Shown here: positions 149-22,339 of the stretch, one piece after another
Layout: every line of letters begins with the position of its first letter
Numbering within the stretch: position 1 is the stretch's first letter
Origin: a virus
Virus record (IMG/VR): IMGVR_UViG_3300021091_003447
Span: 1 to 30,715 of that record
Reading direction: 5' to 3' (one strand)
DNA length: 30,715 bases
The notes under the pieces: model-generated
Told to the model about the DNA's origin: nothing
The model's input: only the letters and a program-made list of their open reading frames with translations
The model's database searches: none
Program-made: the position numbers and the translations under genes

Positions 149-827
149 ATAACACTAGTGTACTGGTGCTGTCACCCACTTTGCCGCTTACCCAAGTGTT
201 GAATGCGAGACTGTATCTTTCTTTTTTAGGATTGCTTTTGTTGGTTTGCACAGAATGTGTGAGCCATGAAGGAAAGAAAACCACGTCCCATTTCTTAGGT
301 CTCAGACTCCAACCCTGTGCATTGAAAACATTGAACTTGTCTGGATTAAAATTATAGTCAATACGCACCACATCAGGAAACACATTGGTCCAATGTTTGT
401 CTTTGTGAAACACAATGTCACCTGTGTCCTCCACATCACTGAGATACAACACACCTGATATGAGACTGTTTGAATGATAGTGTTCTCCAGAATAATCAGT
501 GTCCAAGTATTGATTCATCCAACTGGTGTTTATTCTAAATTCATGTTTGACATCCACATCTAAAAATCCATGTAAAAAATCTTTCAATCGATTGGTCAAT
601 GCATCTTTGAGTGGTCTGCAGATAGGATCATCCAGCACAAATAGACCAGCAGAATTTTTAGCATTACTGTAGATCAGTCTCTTGTATTCAAGTTTGTTCA
701 ACAAGTAATCCACAATCACACTGCTTTGCGGTTCAATGCGTGTTTGACACACAGGCACAGCAAACAATGGAATTACATTTTCTCCAGTGATAGGTTCCAG
801 TGGCATGCAATTACTTACTCCATTCAC
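147..827 (-). CDS. 2OG-Fe(II) oxygenase-like protein (first of two paralogues)
   Basis: The 226-residue protein resembles the putative 2OG-Fe(II) oxygenases common in marine T4-like phages (TIGR02466-type). Visible features are a PLFAVP segment near residue 21, a histidine pair at H116/H118 followed by the conserved SGVLYLS strand, a distal histidine H191 after FFPSWLT, and an arginine near 204, which fit a double-stranded beta-helix dioxygenase. Whether it binds iron is not proven: the usual HxD motif is replaced by HYHS. It overlaps the end of hemE by 17 bp and is the last gene of the operon. A second start at position 806, just after the hemE stop with GGAG about 11 nt upstream, is equally plausible. 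A paralogue is encoded at 13841-14488. Confidence 0.75.
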   Translation of the reverse strand: MNGVSNCMPLEPITGENVIPLFAVPVCQTRIEPQSSVIVDYLLNKLEYKRLIYSNAKNSAGLFVLDDPICRPLKDALTNRLKDFLHGFLDVDVKHEFRINTSWMNQYLDTDYSGEHYHSNSLISGVLYLSDVEDTGDIVFHKDKHWTNVFPDVVRIDYNFNPDKFNVFNAQGWSLRPKKWDVVFFPSWLTHSVQTNKSNPKKERYSLAFNTWVSGKVGDSTSTLVL

Positions 828-1797
828 GCACTGCTGCGATTAATTTTTGAACAGTGATGGGTTTGGTTTGTTTCAATATGCCATGTCCTAGATTGAACAC
901 ATAGGGATGATCCTTGAAAGCAGTGATATATTTTTTGGCACTCTCCAACATGTGTTTTTCATTGCCCAATAATATTTTTGGATCCAAGCCACCCTGTATG
1001 GGTTGATTGGGCAACATGGTGCTGATGTAGGCAGGGTCCTGGGTGTAGTCTATGCTGAGTCCATGTGGTTGCACTTGTTGAGCAAATTTGACCAATTGTG
1101 CAGGTTTTAGACCTTTAGCAAAACTGATCACAGGCACATGTGGAAATTTTTCTTTGATATGATCAATAATTTGAGTGTGTGGTTTTATGCACCAATCTTC
1201 CACTTCCTGATCCAACAATTCTCCTGCATGACTGTCAAATATCTGTATCACATCTGCTCCAGCCTGTATCTGTGCTACCACATGCTGTATGATTTGATGT
1301 GTGAGTCGATGCCTCACAGCGTCCATGTGTTTCAATTGTAGATCCAATGTGTGCGGATCAAACATGTAATGCATCAGTGTGTAGGGTGCTGCCACAAATC
1401 CTATCAAAGATTTTTCTGTGGACAGTCTACGTCTAGTTTTTACGATGCCATCATACACACACAATAATTTTTTGGTGAATTGACTGTCAGGAGTGTCAAA
1501 AAATATCTTTTCTTTGAATTCACCCAGTTGTGGTCCTTGACTGGAGAACTCTAGATCCTGACCCATGGCCCAAGGAATCAACAGTATGTCTGAAAATATA
1601 ATAGCAGCATCCAAATCATATCTCTGCACCGGCTGCAGAGTGATTTCTGTCACAAGATTGCTGTTGGTTACTTTGTCCATGAAGTTGAGATTGTTCAACA
1701 CTCTATACTCAGGCAGGTATCTACCAGCTTGACGCATGAACCAAATAGGTTTGATGTCCTTGCGTTTGTGAATTAAAACTTCATGCAGTGTGGTCAT
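811..1797 (-). CDS. hemE: Uroporphyrinogen III decarboxylase HemE
   Basis: HemE decarboxylates the four acetate side chains of uroporphyrinogen III to give coproporphyrinogen III in cytosolic haem synthesis. The N-terminal signature WFMRQAGRYLPEYR (residues about 19-32) and the AIIFSDIL segment with its catalytic-site aspartate are intact, as are the GGLDP and LGHGIL segments near the C terminus. At 328 residues it is slightly shorter than typical bacterial HemE (about 340-355) but shows no internal break. The start codon follows the hemF stop directly (TAAATG), so the two are translationally coupled. Its product is the substrate of the upstream gene's product, HemF. This is clearly a host-derived metabolic gene. 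Confidence 0.96.
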   Translation of the reverse strand: MTTLHEVLIHKRKDIKPIWFMRQAGRYLPEYRVLNNLNFMDKVTNSNLVTEITLQPVQRYDLDAAIIFSDILLIPWAMGQDLEFSSQGPQLGEFKEKIFFDTPDSQFTKKLLCVYDGIVKTRRRLSTEKSLIGFVAAPYTLMHYMFDPHTLDLQLKHMDAVRHRLTHQIIQHVVAQIQAGADVIQIFDSHAGELLDQEVEDWCIKPHTQIIDHIKEKFPHVPVISFAKGLKPAQLVKFAQQVQPHGLSIDYTQDPAYISTMLPNQPIQGGLDPKILLGNEKHMLESAKKYITAFKDHPYVFNLGHGILKQTKPITVQKLIAAVREWSK

Positions 1798-2631
1798 TTA
1801 CCACTCCGCTGTGGGTGGCATGCTCATAAGAATGGCTTCTATGTTGCCATTGGTGTGCAGACCAAATTTGGTGCCTCTATCATGCAACAGATTGAATTCA
1901 GCATATCTAGATCTCTTACGAGCTTGTATCTGTCTATCCTCTTCGGTGTATTCATGGTTTCTAGTGTCATTGATGGTCCTGCATGACAGTTTGAGAAACA
2001 ATTCACCCATAGCCTTTGTGAATTTGAATTTATTTTGAAATTCTTGCATGTCTGCACAGTAGTCATGATCATAAAATATGCCACCTATGCCTCTGGGTTC
2101 CTGTCTGTGTGACAGATAGAAATATTCATCACAATCCTTTTTAATTTTGCTATATTGTTCAAAGCTCATGTATTCTGTGCATTTGCTTCTGATTTTGTCA
2201 TGCCATCTACCTGTGACTTCAATCATGGGATGACTTGGAGTCATGTCCATGCCACCTGCCAACCAACTCTTGTGAGTGGTTTGAATGTGCCTTGTGTTGA
2301 AGTGCATGGCAGGCACATAAGGATTCATTGGATGGATTACCACACTGATGCCAGTGGCCCAATACTTGCCGTCCTGTTCACCGCCTGGTAGATGATATCT
2401 GTGCTGTTCTGACATCACGCCACTCACAGTGCTCACATTCACACCCACTTTTTCAAATGTGTCTCCCAATCGCATCACACGCATCACACCACCACCATCT
2501 TCCTCCACATAGCTGCGGCGCCAAGACTTTTCTTCGAATCTTGCTGATTTTTCGTAGCTTTCAAAGTCATCGCACAAATGCAATTGCAATTGTTCGAACC
2601 ATTCGCGGGCGATAGTTTTGGCTTCTTGCAT
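1798..2631 (-). CDS. hemF: Oxygen-dependent coproporphyrinogen III oxidase HemF
   Basis: HemF uses O2 to convert coproporphyrinogen III to protoporphyrinogen IX. The 277-residue protein is close to full family length (about 280-300). Conserved blocks are visible in order: SWRRSYVEEDGGGVMRV, the QHRYHLPGG and ISVVIHPMNPYVPAMHFN stretch, SWLAGGMDMTP with the catalytic-region aspartate, PRGIGGIFYD, and the C-terminal RYAEFNLLHDRGTKFGL followed by ILMSMPP. The oxygen-requiring isoenzyme fits an aerobic marine host. No strong ribosome binding site or private promoter is visible; transcription probably comes through from the lipoprotein promoter at 2852-2880. A 16-bp palindrome lies in its upstream gap. 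Confidence 0.97.
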   Translation of the reverse strand: MQEAKTIAREWFEQLQLHLCDDFESYEKSARFEEKSWRRSYVEEDGGGVMRVMRLGDTFEKVGVNVSTVSGVMSEQHRYHLPGGEQDGKYWATGISVVIHPMNPYVPAMHFNTRHIQTTHKSWLAGGMDMTPSHPMIEVTGRWHDKIRSKCTEYMSFEQYSKIKKDCDEYFYLSHRQEPRGIGGIFYDHDYCADMQEFQNKFKFTKAMGELFLKLSCRTINDTRNHEYTEEDRQIQARKRSRYAEFNLLHDRGTKFGLHTNGNIEAILMSMPPTAEW

Positions 2632-2672
2632 GTGACTGTGTTGGTTGCTTTGTTGTAATTATTGTGATTATT

Positions 2673-2688
2673 TTGGCCAATTGGCCAA
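2673..2688. repeat. Perfect 16-bp palindrome upstream of hemF
   Basis: TTGGCCAATTGGCCAA is a perfect palindrome made of two tandem copies of the palindrome TTGGCCAA. It sits between the lipoprotein stop and the hemF start. No T run follows on either strand, so it looks more like a protein-binding site than a terminator. Confidence 0.6.
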
Positions 2689-2702
2689 GTTGAATCTAAG
2701 TA

Positions 2703-2846
2703 TTATTTGCAGACGCCAAACACGCAGCCAAGTGCTTTGCCAAGATCACCCATGGGTGAACTGTTTGGTGTCTTTTCAGTTTGAGTGGGTGTGCTGGCAC
2801 ATGCTGTGAACAGCAACACACTTAGAATCAAAATTGTTCTTCGCAT
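2703..2846 (-). CDS. Small lipoprotein (47 aa)
   Basis: The 47-residue ORF has a basic N terminus (MRRT), a short hydrophobic stretch and the lipobox LFTAC, so the mature protein should start at Cys16 and be lipid-anchored. The short mature part (about 32 residues) contains two further cysteines near the end (LGCVFGVCK). No family is recognised. The start codon lies only 5 nt after a perfect TATAAT -10 box and has no ribosome binding site, which predicts a leaderless mRNA. It is the first gene of the operon containing hemF, hemE and the oxygenase-like gene. Confidence 0.75.
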   Translation of the reverse strand: MRRTILILSVLLFTACASTPTQTEKTPNSSPMGDLGKALGCVFGVCK

Positions 2847-2851
2847 GACAC

Positions 2852-2880
2852 ATTATAGCAGCAAATATTCAAAAAGTCAA
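2852..2880 (-). promoter_or_regulatory. Sigma70 promoter of the lipoprotein-hemF-hemE operon
   Basis: On the minus strand: -35 TTGACT (2875-2880), 17-bp spacer, -10 TATAAT (2852-2857). The lipoprotein ATG begins 5 nt downstream of the -10 box, about where transcription should start. The promoter begins right at the end of dnaK. Confidence 0.85.
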
Positions 2881-2882
2881 TA

Positions 2883-4805
2883 CTACTTGTCTTTTTTGAC
2901 TTCTTCAAATTCGGCATCCACCACTTTGTCCTCTTTGGGTTGAGATTGAGCTTGGTCCTGTGCCTGTGCTTGCTCCTGCTGTTGACTCTTGTACACAGCT
3001 TCACCCATTTTGAATGATGCCTGTGTGAGTGCTTCTGTCTTACTTTTGATTTCTTCTGTGCTGCCAGATTTCATAACTGCCTTCAATTCTTCCATTGCTT
3101 TGTTGATGGCATCTTTGTCTGCATCAGACACTTTGTCTTTGTGTTCTTTGAGACTCTGTTCCACACTGGCCATCAGTGCATCTGCGTGATTTTTGGCATC
3201 TACTTCATCGCGTTTCTTTTGATCCGCTTCCTTGTTGGCTTCTGCCTCTTTGATCATTCTATCAATATCAGCATCACTCAAACCAGAATTGGCCTGTATC
3301 TGTATCTTCTGTTCCTTGCCCGTGCCCTTGTCTTTAGCACTCACATGCACTATGCCATTGGCGTCGATGTCAAATGTGACTTCAATCTGTGGCATGCCTC
3401 TTGGGGCTGGTGCTATGCCGGTGAGTTCAAAGTTGCCCAGCAGTTTATTGTCTGCGGCCATCTGTCTCTCACCTTGGAATACTCTTATGCTCACAGCTGG
3501 CTGATTGTTTTCTGCTGTGCTGAATACCTGACTTTTCTTTGTGGGTATGGTGGTGTTCTTTTCAATCAATCTGGTGAACACGCCACCTAATGTTTCAATA
3601 CCAAGCGACAGTGGAGTGACATCTAATAACAACACATCCTTCACATCACCTTGCAAAACTCCTGCCTGTACAGCAGCACCCAATGCCACTACTTCGTCAG
3701 GATTAACTCCTTGATTGGGATCTTTGCCAAAGAAGTTCTTTACCACTTCAACAACTTTGGGCATTCTGGTCATACCACCCACCAACAGCACTTCTTGAAT
3801 GTCAGCAGCATTAACTCCTGCGTCCTTCAATGCTGTGCGGCAAGGTTCTATGGTTTTCTGTATGAGATGATCCACTAAACTTTCTAATTTGGCACGAGTG
3901 ATCTTCATGTTCACGTGCTTAGGACCAGTCTTGTCAGCACTGATAAATGGCAGATTGATTTCAGTCTGTGTGCTGGATGACAGCTCAATTTTGGCTTTTT
4001 CAGCTGCTTCTCTTATTCTTTGTGTGGCTAATCTATCACCTCTAAGATTTATGCCTGATTCTTTTTTGAATTCATCTGTGATATAATCCTGTATCACTGA
4101 GTCAAAGTCTTCACCACCCAGTGTTGTATTGCCGTTGGTGCTCTTAACTTCAAATATGCCATCACCCAACTCTAATACAGAAATATCAAATGTGCCTCCA
4201 CCCAAGTCATACACTGCAATGGTTTTTGCTTGTTTCTTATCCATTCCATATGCCAGTGCGGCTGCTGTGGGTTCATTGATGATCCTCAAAACTTCCAATC
4301 CTGCAATTTTGCCTGCGTCTTTGGTGGCTTGTCTTTGTGCATCGTTGAAGTATGCTGGCACTGTAATCACTGCCTGTGATACAGTTCTACCTAAATATTT
4401 TTCTGCAGTTTCTTTCATCTTGGTCAACACATAAGAGCTGATCTGTGGTGGAGAGTATTTTTTGTTTTTACTTTCTACCCAAGCATCTCCATTGTCTGAT
4501 CTCACAACTTTGTATGGTAATTTGGAAATGTCTTTCTGTAATGATGGATCTTGGAATGTTCTTCCGATCAATCTTTTCACAGCAAAAAAAGTGTTTTCAC
4601 TGTTGGTGACTGCTTGACGTTTGGCTGAATGTCCAACCAATGTTTCTGAATCTGTGATTGCCACCACTGATGGTGTGGTTCTGTAACCTTCTTGATTTTC
4701 TAAAATTTTTGGCTCTTTGCCGTCCATTATGGCCACACATGAGTTTGTGGTGCCCAAGTCTATGCCAATTACTGGCCCTTTGATTAAAGTGTCTGCGTTT
4801 TTCAT
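2883..4805 (-). CDS. dnaK: Hsp70 chaperone DnaK, full length
   Basis: The 640-residue protein is a complete DnaK. It has the ATP-binding phosphate loop [12 protein letters not shown] near residues 14-25, the [14 protein letters not shown] and [10 protein letters not shown] segments, phosphate-2 [10 protein letters not shown], the adenosine motif [11 protein letters not shown], the interdomain linker [13 protein letters not shown], a beta-sandwich substrate domain, a helical lid, and a Gln-rich tail ending [11 protein letters not shown]. The start at 4805 was chosen because AAGGAGAAC lies just upstream; an upstream start at 4844 lacks this. No dnaJ or grpE is nearby, so it would depend on host co-chaperones. 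The promoter is sigma70-type, with no heat-shock promoter seen. A whole dnaK is unusual in a phage. Confidence 0.97.
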
Positions 4806-4862
4806 TTGTTCTCCTTTGTAAGCAAGTTTTACACACAAGCTCATAAAGCCAAGTGTGTATAG

Positions 4863-11031: not shown

Positions 11032-11274
11032 ATGAAGGTACAAGAAATTGTGTCAGACGTCACTCAGGAAGTCAAAGCCTCCAAGGAGCTGTGCAAAAGT
11101 GCCAAGCCCAGCAGTGCATTGGGTGCCAGTCAATTGGCCTCATGCAAAAGTCAAGGTCTTAGACCACGTGAAGGCAACAAGAGTTTCAAAATAGGCAACA
11201 AACGTGTGAGAGTGGGAGGCAAACGCATTCGTGGACGCCCTTACGGTGGACCACTGCCTTTGTACAGCCGATGA
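11032..11274 (+). CDS. Basic protein with MKhxEh N-terminal tag (80 aa)
   Basis: The first residues MKVQEIVSDV match a tag shared with three genes at 21.4-22.3 kb and resemble the capsid-targeting sequence of T4 internal proteins. The C-terminal half is very basic (KIGNKRVRVGGKRIRGRPYGG), as expected for a DNA-binding or DNA-condensing protein. Function not proven. It overlaps the YqgE-family gene by 4 bp (ATGA). Confidence 0.7.
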   Translation: MKVQEIVSDVTQEVKASKELCKSAKPSSALGASQLASCKSQGLRPREGNKSFKIGNKRVRVGGKRIRGRPYGGPLPLYSR

Positions 11275-11833: not shown

Positions 11834-13036
11834 ATGCTGCCAATTGACAAATTCACACGCATCACGGAAAACCTTAAAACTAAGGGCAATTATCGTGTGT
11901 TCAATGACATTAATAGAGAGCGTGGTAGCTATCCAAATGCTCTCTGGCACAGCAAATACAATGTCAAAAAAGTTATCAATTGGTGTTCCAATGACTATCT
12001 TGGCATGGGCCAGCACAAAATTGTGTTGGATGCCATGCGTACTGTGTTGGACCATGTGGGTGCAGGCTCTGGGGGAACCAGGAATATTTCCGGTACTACT
12101 CAACACCACATTGCATTAGAAAAAGAATTGGCTGCGCTACATCGCAAAAGTGCCGCGTTGTTGTACACGTCCGCTTATGTCGCTAACGAGTGGACTCTGG
12201 TCAGTCTACAAAAAATCATTAATGATGTTGAATTTGTGAGTGATGAAAAAAATCACGCCAGCCTCATTCAAGGTATGAGGAATAGTAGGGCGATAAAACA
12301 CATTTTTCGACACAATGACATGAATGACCTAGAAGCCAAACTGAAAACTGTCAAAGGCACAGCCTGTATTGTTTTTGAATCTGTGTATAGCATGGACGGC
12401 AGTGTGAGCAAAGTGAAAGAAATATGCGATCTTGCTGATCGTTACAAAGCAATCACATACATCGACGAAGTACATGCGGTTGGTTTGTATGGTCAGCAGG
12501 GAGAAGGCATAGTGGGGCAGATGGGACTGCATGACAGAGTGGACATTATCAATGGCACACTGGGTAAGGCTTTTGGAGCCCAGGGTGGCTACATTGCAGC
12601 ACCTTCTGAATTTATTGATGCCATACGTTCCATCAGCTCAGGATTTATTTTTACCACCAGTCTTCCGCCAGTGATTTGTGCAGGTGCCACAGCAGCCATA
12701 CGTTATTTGAGAGATGAAACTGGAGTCGTGTTGAGAGAAAAACATCAAACAGTGGTGCGCATGGTAAAGACTGCTTTGGCTGGCGCAGGACTAGATGTGA
12801 TGTTCAATCCCACTCACATTGTGCCAGTGATGGTGCGTGACCCAGTCAAATGTAAAATGATTAGTGATTTTTTATTGTATGAATATGATTCATACATACA
12901 GCCCATAAACTATCCCACAGTGCCTGAAGGCACAGAAAGATTGAGAATAGCCCCCACACCAAATCATTCGGCAGACATGATAGAACGATTAGTGAAAGGT
13001 ATGGTGGCAGGCTTCGATAAGTACTTGAAAATATAA
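11834..13036 (+). CDS. hemA: 5-aminolevulinate synthase HemA (ALAS)
   Basis: ALAS is a PLP enzyme that condenses glycine with succinyl-CoA, the first and usually rate-setting step of haem synthesis in alphaproteobacteria. The 400-residue protein is full length. Diagnostic segments are [51 protein letters not shown], the PLP-lysine segment [25 protein letters not shown], and the ALAS-specific [17 protein letters not shown]. These separate it from the related Kbl and BioF enzymes. It is controlled by a T4-type late promoter, whereas hemE and hemF are in a sigma70 operon. Confidence 0.97.
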
Positions 13037-14734: not shown

Positions 14735-16039
14735 TTACTTGGAACCGAATATGTTGATGCTTTTAATCTTGCCTTCTTTTTTCCACTGCTCATACTCGTG
14801 AATGCTGCCGGGCATGGGCAATGGCTTTTCTGTCAAAGCCACCAATGGAGCAATAATCAAAAAGAATGCAAACCAGTATGCTGTGCCCACTCTGCTGATC
14901 AACAGATATATGCCTTCTGCTGGCATAGCACCCACATACATCAGCACAAAGAAGTCCAGCACAAATAAAAACACAAATTGTTTCCAAATGGGTCTAAACA
15001 CACAGGATCTCACTTTGCTCATGTCCAACCAAGGCAGCAGGGCCAGTATGCCTATGCTAGAGACCATTGCTATCACGCCTAATAGTTTGTCTGGAATGGC
15101 TCGCAGTATGGCATAGAATGGTAGGAAGTACCACTCTGGCACAATGTGTGCTGGAGTAACCAGTGGATCTGCTGGAATATAGTTGTCAGGGTGACCCAAA
15201 TAGTTTGGTGCATACATCATCACCACCACAAAAATTAAAAGAAACACCAGTATTGCCACCAAATCCTTGCTGGTTGTGAAAGGTGAAAAGCTCACTGTGT
15301 CTCTGGTGTCCACAGGTTCTATGCCGGATGGATTGTTGGAGCCCACAATGTGTAGAGCAATCACGTGAAACACCACCACACCCACTATGCCGAAAGCAAT
15401 CAGCCAGTGCAGCACATAAAACCTATTCAAGGTGTCATCACCCACTGAATAGTCACCCCACAGCCAAGTCACAATATGTTCACCCACCAATGGTATGGCA
15501 GAGAACAGATTGGTGATCACTGTGGCTCCCCAATAGCTCATCTGCCCCCATGGCAGTGTGTAGCCTAGGAAAGCAGTGGCCATCATCATGAAGAATATTA
15601 TGATGCCAAATATCCACATCAATTGACGTGGTTCTTTGTATGATCCATAGTACAGTCCTCTAAAGATGTGCAGGTACACTGCAATGAAGAAGAAACTGGC
15701 GAGGTTCATGTGAGCGTATCTGATCAGCCAACCATAGTTGACGTCACGCATAATTTTTTCCACAGAATCAAATGCATACCTTGCATCTGGTTTGTAATGC
15801 ATGCCAAGTGCTATGCCTGTCACTATCAACAGTATGAGACACAGCATCAGTATGCCACCAAAACTCCAAAAATAGCTCAGTGTTTTTGGCACTTGAAAAT
15901 CCAAGTATTCGTGTTTGAACATTCTGATCACAGGCAATCTGTTGTCAATCCAACCCAGCACACCTGTGAAAGGTGAGCCACCAGTCTTATTGGTATGCAC
16001 AGGTTGATATTCTGTGTTTGATTTATTTTCTTCAGTCAT
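14735..16039 (-). CDS. petB: Cytochrome b subunit of the bc1 complex
   Basis: Cytochrome b carries the two haems and the quinol and quinone sites of complex III in the inner membrane. The 434-residue protein is full length, including the N-terminal extension typical of alphaproteobacteria and about eight membrane helices. Two H-x13-H pairs are intact (H110/H124 and H211/H225), as are [16 protein letters not shown] and the Qo-site PEWY motif (301-304). The usual HxNGAS block reads HMNLAS. Neither the Rieske protein nor cytochrome c1 is present, so the product would have to join host subunits. The gene lies in a minus-strand island inside the rightward arm, preceded by two tiny membrane ORFs. 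Confidence 0.97.
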
Positions 16040-17522: not shown

Positions 17523-17573
17523 TAAACACATGGTGTTTCCGTGCAGGTTCTCACGGTAAATATGATTATTGCT

Positions 17574-17840
17574 ATGAAAAAACAAACTAGATCCATACTG
17601 CAGGAATTGAACAATCTATACAGGAGTCAAAACATTGACCATCTGGTGGAGGCCAAAGGCAGCAACATCATAGAGAGTGCTATCAATCTGTTTCAGATGA
17701 TTCACGAAAATTATGACAAAGAGACTGCGGAAGAATTAGAGAGAAGATTCATCAACAGCATACGCAATGGTGACAGTAAAAAATTCAAGACTGGCATTAA
17801 AAAAATTCAAAATCAATCTGACAATGATCATGCTGAATGA
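17574..17840 (+). CDS. Conserved hypothetical phage protein (88 aa)
   Basis: The start MKKQTRSILQELN was chosen because TAAATA (17557-17562) ends 11 nt upstream; other starts fall in or before that motif. The sequence is helical and charged (IIESAINLFQMIHENYDKETAEELERRF). It resembles small conserved proteins next to structural genes in marine T4-like phages (from memory). No catalytic motif. It overlaps the nucleotidyltransferase gene. Confidence 0.68.
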   Translation: MKKQTRSILQELNNLYRSQNIDHLVEAKGSNIIESAINLFQMIHENYDKETAEELERRFINSIRNGDSKKFKTGIKKIQNQSDNDHAE

Positions 17841-18579
17841 AGGCGGTAATATTTTCAAAGACAAGCAAGGTCAAGCAGCCACCACAAACATAGTACAAGC
17901 AGATGTGTCTGACACTGTGAAGTGGTTGGAGACTATCACAGGTTTGGATCTCAAAAACAATCAACTGGGCAGTACTGGCAAAGCTGCTGTCAGCAGTGAT
18001 ATAGATTTGGGAGTGGATGAAGAAAAAATCAGCAAAGATGATTTGACCAGCAAATTATCTCAGTGGGCCAGCAGTCAAGGCTTGGATGCCAAAGAATATG
18101 TGCGTAGGAGTGGCATCAGTGTGCATTTTAAAACTCCCATCAAAGGTGATGCCAAATTGGGTCATGTGCAAACAGATTTCATGTTTGGTGATCCCAAATG
18201 GCAAAAATTCAGTCTGCAGGGTGGTCAACCTGGCAGCGAATACAAAGGCATGGACCGTCACATATTGTTGGCCAGCATCAGCAAAGCATTAGGCTACAAA
18301 TGGAGTCATTTGTATGGTTTGATCAATCGCACCAGCAATCAACCTGTGACCAAGGATCCAGATCGCATAGCACAATTGTTGTTGGGACAAGGACACACAG
18401 CAGATGATCTTAGCAGTGTGGAGAGCATACACAAATTGATACGCAGTAGATCAGACTATGATCAACTGGTGGCTGACGCAGTGGAATCATTTGGCAAAGC
18501 TGGCAAGAAGCTGCCTGAACACTATGTGGAAGGATCCAACCTATGGTTCCGCAACATGATGAATAGGATATCTCAATGA
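17830..18579 (+). CDS. Nucleotidyltransferase, DNA polymerase beta superfamily fold
   Basis: The 249-residue protein contains the pol-beta-type nucleotidyltransferase signature GSTGKAAVSSDIDLGVD, with GS at residues 48-49 and catalytic-type aspartates D57 and D59. A third acidic residue is well placed in HVQTDFMFGD (D116). The family adds nucleotides to RNA, proteins or small molecules; the substrate is unknown. The start could also be 17824. Its stop overlaps the start of the ligase-like gene by 4 bp, so the two are probably made together, pointing to a joint nucleic-acid modification or repair role. Confidence 0.7.
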   Translation: MLNEGGNIFKDKQGQAATTNIVQADVSDTVKWLETITGLDLKNNQLGSTGKAAVSSDIDLGVDEEKISKDDLTSKLSQWASSQGLDAKEYVRRSGISVHFKTPIKGDAKLGHVQTDFMFGDPKWQKFSLQGGQPGSEYKGMDRHILLASISKALGYKWSHLYGLINRTSNQPVTKDPDRIAQLLLGQGHTADDLSSVESIHKLIRSRSDYDQLVADAVESFGKAGKKLPEHYVEGSNLWFRNMMNRISQ

Positions 18580-19715
18580 AGTTGGTAGAGATCAAACCGA
18601 TCAGAGGCAGAGTCAATATTATATTGGAAGAAGCACGCATACAGCACTTGGAAGATTTTGTGATCTTTGAAGGCAGTAGAGGAGCCAAACAGGCTTTAGA
18701 AGCACTGTACAACATCAACAAGAATATGAAAAATATCACTATCAAATGGGATGGTGCAGTGGGCGTGGTGTTTGGTCGTGATCCCAACGGAGAATTTATA
18801 TTCACTGACAAATCAGGTTTTGTGGCCAAAGGCTATGATGGCAGAAGCACCAGTCCAGAAGATTTGGAAGCTATGATAATGGCTCGAGCCAAAGATCCAA
18901 AGAAACTGGATTCCTACAAACAATTTGCAGCCAAGATGAAAAACATATATCCTGTGCTGCAGGCTGCTGTGCCTGAAGACTTGGAAGGTTACTATGAATC
19001 AGATGTTTTATATTTTCAAACACCACAGTTGATTCAAGATAGATATGTGTTCAAACCCAACGTGGTCACCTACAGTGTGGCCAAGGACAGTGATTTGGGC
19101 AAACGCATAGGCAGAAGTCAAGTGGGAGTGGTGGTGCACAGATTGTTCAACGAACAGGGTGCCACACAGGCAATGCCTAATAAGATAGAAGTCAAAGGCA
19201 ATGACCTATTAATCTTGCCACCTGTCACAGTGAGCAAGGCAGTGGAACTGGATACCACTGTGCTGGATACTATCAAATCTCAAATCAACACTCAAGCATT
19301 GGCTGTGGACACACTGCTGGATCAAAACAAACTGAGTGCTATGAAAGTCACAGATTTTTCCAACATACTGTACACCTATGTGAACAGCAAGGTGATCACC
19401 GGCATGAAAAATGTGGGGCAGGATTTTGCCAAATGGCTCAGCAACAGTGCTGTGTCACGCAACAAGCAAGCCAAGATATTGGAATACATCAAACAGTATG
19501 CTGCAGGTTTCACAGCACTGTGGAACATATGGAATGCTCTGCAGGCAGCCAAAAACAATGTGATAGGACAATTGGATTCACAAGCAGCAGATGTCACTGC
19601 CACCACAGGCGATCAACCAGGTGGTGAGGGCTATGTGATACAGACAGCACAGGGTGCTATCAAGTTGGTGAACAGAGCAGGCTTCACAAGGGCTAATTTT
19701 TTACTAAATAGATAG
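18576..19715 (+). CDS. Ligase-like protein with KxDG motif (379 aa)
   Basis: The sequence shows the order of motifs of covalent nucleotidyl transferases (ATP-dependent DNA/RNA ligases). Motif I is IKWDG with K57 as the candidate AMP-accepting lysine. FIFTDKSGF follows, and near the C terminus come EGYVI (E351, motif IV) and AIKLV (K363, motif V). The distance from motif I to IV is larger than in classic ligases, and no OB-fold domain is evident. It also starts with MKLVEI, like the MKhxEh tag of other genes here. It may be a divergent phage ligase or a non-catalytic relative. It is coupled to the nucleotidyltransferase gene by ATGA. Confidence 0.6.
   Translation: MKLVEIKPIRGRVNIILEEARIQHLEDFVIFEGSRGAKQALEALYNINKNMKNITIKWDGAVGVVFGRDPNGEFIFTDKSGFVAKGYDGRSTSPEDLEAMIMARAKDPKKLDSYKQFAAKMKNIYPVLQAAVPEDLEGYYESDVLYFQTPQLIQDRYVFKPNVVTYSVAKDSDLGKRIGRSQVGVVVHRLFNEQGATQAMPNKIEVKGNDLLILPPVTVSKAVELDTTVLDTIKSQINTQALAVDTLLDQNKLSAMKVTDFSNILYTYVNSKVITGMKNVGQDFAKWLSNSAVSRNKQAKILEYIKQYAAGFTALWNIWNALQAAKNNVIGQLDSQAADVTATTGDQPGGEGYVIQTAQGAIKLVNRAGFTRANFLLNR
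19705..19710 (+). promoter_or_regulatory. Late-type promoter motif
   Basis: CTAAATA ends 6 nt before the ATG at 19717, no ribosome binding site between. It overlaps the last codons of the ligase-like gene. Confidence 0.5.
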
Positions 19716-19716
19716 T

Positions 19717-20115
19717 ATGGTAAAAGCCAAAGATTTCATTCCACAAAATGTACGCATAATGGATCCAGCAGATGATCCTGACGCAGGACTAGACAAAGAA
19801 TTTCGTCAAGATACCATGTTCAATCAATTGGGCAAGGTGTTGGACAGCAAAAACAATCCCAAACCCATCACTCATGTGATCACAGATGACGGTGCCAAAC
19901 ACATGGTAAATCCTAGACAGGCCAACGCACTGAGAATGCTGGCCACTTCAGACAAAATCAAACCTGCAGTAAAATTGCAGTTCACCAAGGACATACAAAC
20001 CAGCAAAGGATTGAAAAGATTCCTGGATCTACAGGACATCAAACAGTATGTGCCCACTTTTGTTGATGTGTACATGAAGGATCAAGAACCCTACCAACCT
20101 GTCACAAACTATTAA
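19717..20115 (+). CDS. Hypothetical phage protein (132 aa)
   Basis: A soluble, charged protein beginning MVKAKDFIPQNVRIMDPADD, with a central PITHVITDDGAKHMVNP and a helical C-terminal half. No domain recognised. It lies 1 nt after the ligase-like gene and may belong to the same functional module. Confidence 0.65.
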   Translation: MVKAKDFIPQNVRIMDPADDPDAGLDKEFRQDTMFNQLGKVLDSKNNPKPITHVITDDGAKHMVNPRQANALRMLATSDKIKPAVKLQFTKDIQTSKGLKRFLDLQDIKQYVPTFVDVYMKDQEPYQPVTNY

Positions 20116-21425: not shown

Positions 21426-21749
21426 ATGAAAATAGCAGAAATTGTATCAGAATCAGTGGTCAATGTGTGGGGACGCAGTGCGGGCAAATTGACACGCAGA
21501 TACAGATGCACATCAGGCATACGCAAAGGTAGAATAGTGTCCAACCCAGCCACCTGTGCTAGACCCAGAGATCTTAAAAGAAGTGTGGCCTTCAAGAGAA
21601 CCATGGGCAGAAGGGGCAAGGCTGCTAGAGTGAAAGCCAGCAGAACCAAACGTGCCACATTTTCAGCCAGATTGAGAAGATTGAATGTGGGTTCAGGTAG
21701 ACAAAAATTAGGAGGCTTTAGACCCAGCAAACGAAAACCTATAAAATAA
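21426..21749 (+). CDS. Highly basic protein with MKhxEh tag (107 aa)
   Basis: After MKIAEIVSESV the protein is extremely rich in Arg and Lys (about one residue in three), for example RRGKAARVKASRTKR and RLRRLNVGSGRQK. Such composition fits a DNA-binding or DNA-packaging protein. The N terminus resembles the T4 capsid-targeting sequence (MKTYQEFIAE) cut by the prohead protease. An internal protein injected with the DNA is therefore plausible but not shown. It overlaps the next gene by one base. Confidence 0.72.
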   Translation: MKIAEIVSESVVNVWGRSAGKLTRRYRCTSGIRKGRIVSNPATCARPRDLKRSVAFKRTMGRRGKAARVKASRTKRATFSARLRRLNVGSGRQKLGGFRPSKRKPIK

Positions 21750-22123
21750 TGAAGATAAAAGAAATAGCACCAGACAACTATCTGCAAACAGTTTTGAAAA
21801 AAATTGGGCCAGGCATCAAACAGGGTGAACCCATGCCTAAAAATATCATGCCCAAAGGCACCATACGTTCTCCACAAGCCAAACAAATGGCCATGAGAAC
21901 CGGTCGCACAGCACAAAACAATCTCATCAAAACTTCCGGCAGTACCCTGCCTATTCCTGTGGGTCCCAACAAAGAAAAAAATATGATGGTCAAACCCATA
22001 GGTTCTGACAAAGTGCAAATCACTGATCCCAAACCTGACAAAGGCAAAGACAGCACAGTGACCATTAAGAAAAAAGATTTAGATCCTGTGATCAATAATC
22101 TCATACAGAGAGGTATGAAATAG
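21749..22123 (+). CDS. Basic protein with MKhxEh tag (124 aa)
   Basis: Begins MKIKEIAPDNYL and continues as a lysine-, proline- and methionine-rich, probably disordered chain (PMPKNIMPKGTIRSPQAKQM), then a C-terminal segment with alternating charge. No domain. The N-terminal tag and position suggest the same destination as the neighbouring tagged proteins, possibly the capsid interior. Confidence 0.68.
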   Translation: MKIKEIAPDNYLQTVLKKIGPGIKQGEPMPKNIMPKGTIRSPQAKQMAMRTGRTAQNNLIKTSGSTLPIPVGPNKEKNMMVKPIGSDKVQITDPKPDKGKDSTVTIKKKDLDPVINNLIQRGMK

Positions 22124-22339
22124 ATGAAGATCAACGAATTAATATCAGATTTTGAAGTGTACGTCAGCAACGAAGAATCCGCTCTGCTGTCTCAATTGAC
22201 ACAACCTACTCCTATAGAGAGTTTCAGTGAACGAGAACAGTTCATAATTGAAGGTATGATACGCAAAAGTGTTGTAACTAAAATTGTAAGAAACAATCAA
22301 ACGTTGGTGGTGCGCAATGATCAAAACCCAAGTTGCTAA
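22124..22339 (+). CDS. Small protein with MKhxEh tag (71 aa)
   Basis: Begins MKINELISDFEVYV, the third consecutive gene with this tag. Unlike the two before it, it is not basic in its first half. It follows the previous stop codon directly and overlaps the next gene by 23 bp. Function unknown. Confidence 0.65.
   Translation: MKINELISDFEVYVSNEESALLSQLTQPTPIESFSEREQFIIEGMIRKSVVTKIVRNNQTLVVRNDQNPSC

Follow-up and report, generated by a model that had tools for sequence, protein, structure and literature searches.

In bacteriophage T4 the protease gp21 cuts head proteins after the sequence L/I-X-E, and the internal proteins of the head carry capsid-targeting propeptides of 10-19 residues; IPI-III and Alt have such a short N-terminal propeptide, are cut after L/I-X-E and are injected (PMC9026906). 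A second relevant system is that of RlaP, a Pol-beta nucleotidyltransferase (NTase) whose pairing with ATP-dependent RNA ligases in phages has been published, together with the prediction that it restores lost nucleotides before RNA cut by host defences is sealed (PMC7824862). The locus described here has features of each, as a Pol-beta-type NTase is coupled to a ligase-like protein, and both proteins bear a leader and cut motif of the T4 kind. It also departs from each: IPI-III are small basic proteins and Alt is an ADP-ribosyltransferase, neither polymerase nor ligase, and none of them is released from a precursor of fused enzymes, whereas no prohead-protease leaders were seen in the passages on RlaP that were consulted (PMC7824862). 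We regard the chances as about even that the locus encodes a two-enzyme, virion-packaged nucleic-acid end-repair module of T4-type phages, with RNA a likelier substrate than DNA.

The stretch of DNA analysed (the window) is a 30,715-b fragment from an IMG/VR virus record. As the initial annotation had reported, it contains two open reading frames that overlap by four bases at ATGA; the features of the pair and its surroundings are as follows, with a slash marking a predicted cut.

17541 to 17840, plus strand: gene of a virion structural protein family (phrog_11854, PHROG E 1.3e-13), its 3' end inside the NTase start
17830 to 18579, plus strand: NTase, Pol-beta or family X-like, 249 aa (AF2 pLDDT 93.4; Foldseek matches; outside Pfam and PHROG families)
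17830 to 17841, plus strand: predicted NTase leader MLNE, cut before GGNIFK (L-N-E/G), from the [LI]xE/G sites of relatives and the MGG or MSG starts of leaderless ones
17968 to 18006, plus strand: NTase active site GS...SSDID (G47 to D59), from conservation
18175 to 18177, plus strand: third catalytic Asp of the NTase, D116
18576 to 18579, plus strand: ATGA, the 4-b overlap of NTase stop and ligase start
18576 to 19715, plus strand: DUF6267 ligase-like protein, 379 aa (PF19782, E 1.1e-40; AF2 pLDDT 92.3)
18576 to 18632, plus strand: predicted capsid-targeting leader MKLVEIKPIRGRVNIILEE, ahead of ARIQH, cut after E18 or E19, from leader statistics and low model confidence
18744 to 18755, plus strand: ligase motif I, K57-W-D-G (W58 in 88/90 relatives)
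18804 to 18818, plus strand: ligase motif Ia, TDKSG, from sequence (K79 in 75/90)
18987 to 19013, plus strand: ligase motif III, GYYESD143VLY
19254 to 19577, plus strand: helical insertion, residues 227-334, between ligase motifs IIIa and IV, from model secondary structure
19626 to 19637, plus strand: ligase motif IV, E351-G-Y-V
19662 to 19676, plus strand: ligase motif V, K363-LVN-R367 (R367 in 89/90)
19717 to 20115, plus strand: downstream gene, whose apparent syntenic counterpart in a 148-kb relative (G001) begins with the leader-like MKAKEFIKE

The NTase reads from ATG 17830 (alternatively 17824) to the stop at 18579, and the -4 overlap is kept in 28 of 39 split cluster representatives. 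Elsewhere in the window lie host-type genes (811-4844, minus strand; 11834-13036, plus; 14735-16039, minus) for hemE, hemF, dnaK, an ALAS-like aminotransferase and a full-length respiratory-chain cytochrome b; heme synthesis and cytochrome b together on a virus fragment are unusual.

By its AF2 model, the upstream protein has the fold of a Pol-beta superfamily NTase. Its motif GSTGKAAVSSDIDLGVD, with D57 and D59, and a third Asp in VQTDFMF (D116) give the superfamily pattern hG[GS]..D-h-D plus third Asp on a palm fold, and across an alignment of 71 relatives built from IMG/VR loci these residues scarcely vary (G47 71/71, D57 70/71, D59 71/71, D116 70/71). In a Foldseek comparison of the model with the PDB all 50 listed matches were family X polymerases (Pol mu, beta, lambda, TdT, PolX; prob 0.92-1.00, best E 1e-3, TM 0.34-0.48 by query); since the PDB is rich in family X structures, these neighbours firmly show the superfamily and less so the subfamily. 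The pol-beta assignment that had been made from SSDID and the third Asp is thus borne out by conservation and by fold. Family X DNA polymerases (Pol beta, mu, lambda, TdT) have in common with the NTase the catalytic fold and the GS...GDxD motif with its third Asp, but at 249 aa the window protein is too short for full lyase and finger domains, and its sequence similarity to them is undetectable. Against Pfam and PHROG it matched no family and no PolX Pfam domain, and a Pfam scan with the NTase consensus gave no match; DNA_pol_B_thumb matched weakly in 8 of the 71 relatives (best E 0.008) and in none of the ten relatives scanned singly. PADLOC returned no match, which argues against a known defence family. 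An identity with RlaP (PF10127) was considered and rejected, as PF10127 matched neither the window protein nor 17 of 18 relatives' records; the sole match, in Atu_ph07, lies at another locus than its NTase homologue, such that this phage carries both a true RlaP and a window-type NTase at different places.

The downstream protein is a member of Pfam DUF6267 (phrog_455 of T4-like cyanophages), its profile match of 140.6 bits against a cutoff of 27 spanning residues 22-379. The family occurs in 74 phage records, mostly of T4-like cyanophages (21-26% identity among the matches listed), and at no fewer than 586 IMG/VR loci. A scan of genome_contigs for a cellular origin gave three loci, one in a Rickettsiales MAG and two in a single Neomarinimicrobiota MAG, which are possibly phage contigs binned with their hosts. 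The ligase motifs of the window protein (K57-W-D-G, E351-G-Y-V-I and A-I-K363-L-V, with Ia and III between the first two) stand in the order expected, and an alignment of 90 relatives from IMG/VR loci shows K57, D59, G60, D143, E351, G352 and K363 in 90/90. The strands of the AF2 model likewise run through motifs I, Ia, III and IIIa, the helical insertion, IV and V to the end of the protein, which places motifs I (KxDG), III, IV (EG) and V (K) on the strands proper to the covalent nucleotidyltransferase superfamily. As such, the order of motifs I, IV and V put forward in the initial annotation holds, and the residues and fold on which it had hung its proposal did not fail: the NTase fold was found, D57 of the NTase varies in one relative of 71, and D59 of the NTase and K57 and E351 of the ligase-like protein are invariant.

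From these motifs and this topology we infer that the protein is a ligase. Comparison of the model with the PDB gave no solved structure at E<0.001, the first-ranked entry, Trl1 tRNA ligase, reaching only E 0.14, and phmmer and hmmsearch over PDB sequences found no match. Its first BFVD neighbours are DUF6267-type, unnamed or cytidyltransferase-annotated phage proteins, and the named matches beyond these are mainly RNA ligases with weak scores (Atu_ph07, prob 0.91; an erythrocytic iridovirus-like virus; marseilleviruses). With hhalign no match to T4 Rnl1 or Rnl2 was seen, a result that says nothing, as the positive control of Rnl1 against Rnl2 likewise failed. It might be proposed that a protein of this fold instead has a protein or a small molecule as the acceptor of its AMP, or that it serves as a head component with no part in end repair; in S-PM2, unlike in the window copy, DUF6267 shares a polypeptide with a cytidylyltransferase-like domain (CTP_transf_like), as it does on a weaker match in L194, and the helical insertion is unusual. 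Given the full ligase motif set with its invariant residues and the recurrent pairing with Pol-beta NTases, we hold such a structural or nucleotidylating role to be very unlikely.

That pairing was assessed in 80 ligase clusters formed at 85% identity. Of these clusters, 40 have the NTase as a direct neighbour of the ligase, 20 have the two fused and 6 have the NTase within 4 kb; in the other 14, among them S-PM2, MED4-213, Melnitz and DLP_6, it is absent beside the ligase. At least four changes between split and fused states are counted on the tree, an approximate figure in that the reverse-order fusions L085, L092 and L198 and the truncated L137 were scored as split, and fusion or splitting has therefore recurred. 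The fusions occur in both orders, with the ligase ahead of the NTase in L198 and in L085/L092. Two three-domain arrangements were also observed: the protein at L085:3918-6890 (L085/L092) joins a ligase, an apparent second Pol-beta NTase and an NTase of the window type, and that at L194:4356-6803 a cytidylyltransferase-like domain (PF01467, E 0.037, below cutoff), an NTase and a ligase. Furthermore, distant NTase homologues are independently linked to ligase-like genes in three jumbo-phage lineages. In Atu_ph07 and Phosso an RNA_ligase-like gene comes first and overlaps the NTase homologue (PF09414, E 0.002 and 0.085, neither of which reaches the curated cutoff), and in PA5oct a protein with KIDG...EGYVIRT...VKIVDK lies three genes upstream (hhalign prob 74.5 to DUF6267). 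Adjacency, repeated fusion in either order and the recurrence of the link among jumbo phages that are unrelated support a functional coupling of NTase and ligase, as read from gene arrangement, and the original observation of overlapping NTase and ligase-like genes is right and stronger than it was stated.

Whether such a pair would be directed at RNA or at DNA depends largely on the ligase. In cells, family X polymerases and ligases cooperate during base-excision repair and end joining, and a packaged pair of PolX and ligase type that fills gaps in the phage genome and seals it, on entry or after fresh damage, would fit this partnership as well as the fold neighbours of the NTase, which are family X DNA polymerases throughout the 50 listed, albeit in a list biased by the abundance of such structures. 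We nevertheless consider this use on DNA rather unlikely. By sequence and model the protein ends 12 residues past R367, right after motif V, and the OB-fold domain that follows motif V in DNA ligases is absent; the linked jumbo-phage ligases resemble PF09414 RNA_ligase; and the relative G001 carries an ATP-dependent DNA ligase of its own (phrog_114). The missing OB domain, the RNA-type character of the nearest ligases and the separate DNA ligase of this relative favour RNA over DNA for the proposed end-repair module.

The evidence for packaging comes chiefly from the protein starts. The motif counts given here were made after the pattern had been spotted by eye, with positions in the same proteins as controls, and as such they describe a pattern and are not a blind test. 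In 62 of 65 non-redundant NTase relatives with residues upstream, [LI]-X-E directly precedes the conserved GG start, with X varying freely, and four leaderless relatives start with Met right before GG or SG, which is the same mature residue; the free X and these leaderless starts argue for a cut site over a constraint of the fold. In the ligases [LI]-X-E lies within 12 residues of the core in 52/62 (strict) or 58/62 (loose), against 7% and 12% (loose 11.5%) for the protein-body control, and 50/62 begin M[KR]x(1-3)[EDQ][FIL], for example MRAFEFLTE/A. Among the fused proteins, 18/18 have the strict motif no more than eight residues from the ligase core (control 4%), and multi-domain fusions show [LI]xE/G or A between domains as well (LITE/GGN, MITE/AAEARIQH, PELTE/GGN). 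Both window proteins have an N-terminal leader ending in L/I-X-E, as T4-type capsid-targeted proteins do; that of the ligase, residues 1-19, is disordered in the model (pLDDT <50), and that predicted for the NTase has only four residues. Similar leaders occur on a limited gene set in three long relatives.

Several further starts may be mentioned. Small, often basic window proteins (11032-11274, 21426-21749, 21749-22123 and 22124-22339) begin MKVQEIV, MKIAEIVSES, MKIKEIA and MKINELI, which resemble capsid-targeting leaders, and are on these starts likely to be additional virion-internal proteins. The ligase leaders of L185, L180, L184, L188 and L172 have in common a basic, Cys/His-bearing stretch, KYKRSINCSNPKGFSQKAHCAGRKK, between two [LIV]xE sites, which to judge from its composition is possibly DNA-binding. 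In Melnitz (L053) gene 15, before DUF6267, has the leader-like start MQGFKTFLSE/AKVK.

Were the motifs to have some other purpose, the two proteins could be coupled repair enzymes that stay out of the virion and act inside the infected cell. The classical cyanophage DUF6267 genes conform to this, as they adjoin replication genes and have no leader, and the copies examined in S-PM2 and MED4-213 lack the NTase partner too, unlike the window pair. Against it, the fusion junctions and NTase starts match the gp21 rule exactly, with P2 variable, the leaderless NTases begin at the mature residue, and the NTase homologue of PA5oct (EST35_0231) is annotated by its depositors as 'structural protein, ESI-MS/MS', although EST35_0231 is a single homologue and has no leader, and the annotation does not extend to the ligase-like protein. 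We deem action in the cell by unpackaged enzymes unlikely. With regard to the protease that packaging with cleavage would call upon, an S77 prohead protease is present in 7/7 named relatives and in 1/15 IMG/VR relatives, most of which also have no gp23 match, such that these fragments may miss head genes or carry divergent ones; no S78 protease was found in the relatives, and the window's own prohead protease lies outside the fragment. The idea that the pair is packaged into virions, previously raised from its place among structural genes and the start of the ligase-like protein, has thus gained protease-type sites, capsid-targeting-like leaders and one mass-spectrometric annotation, and for the copy in this phage it stands as a prediction.

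For the packaged module, the following course of events may be postulated. Both enzymes would be encoded and expressed with the structural genes, and their leaders would direct them into the prohead core, where the prohead protease would cut after [LI]-X-E to free NTase and ligase, fused versions being converted into separate enzymes. Injected with the genome, they would act before any phage gene expression: the NTase, as a small family X-like polymerase of palm and C-terminal subdomain, would add nucleotides to an end, and the ligase, of the covalent nucleotidyltransferase superfamily, would take AMP on K57 and seal it. The likelier substrate would be RNA, such as tRNA of host or phage origin that defences have cleaved, with DNA ends next. 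We infer ligase activity, packaging in this phage, injection, substrate and purpose alike. The association of the pair across phages and the T4-type cut sites suggest that a nucleic-acid repair kit, ready for use, probably enters the cell with the injected phage DNA; that the fused relatives are protease-processed virion polyproteins, in which polymerase and ligase are loaded into the head, cut apart and delivered as an RNA (or DNA) end-repair kit, we judge to be an evenly balanced proposition.

In the open-licence literature, as far as searched, no paper names DUF6267, and neither its function nor its recurrent fusions or head-protease sites are described. The present analysis offers a testable function for this widespread unnamed family and for a partner NTase that lies outside the Pfam and PHROG families. 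Furthermore, the leader rule provides a simple way of listing virion-injected proteins in uncultured T4-type phages. If the pair is packaged, repair would arrive with the genome and so counter defences that cleave tRNA or DNA as soon as infection begins.
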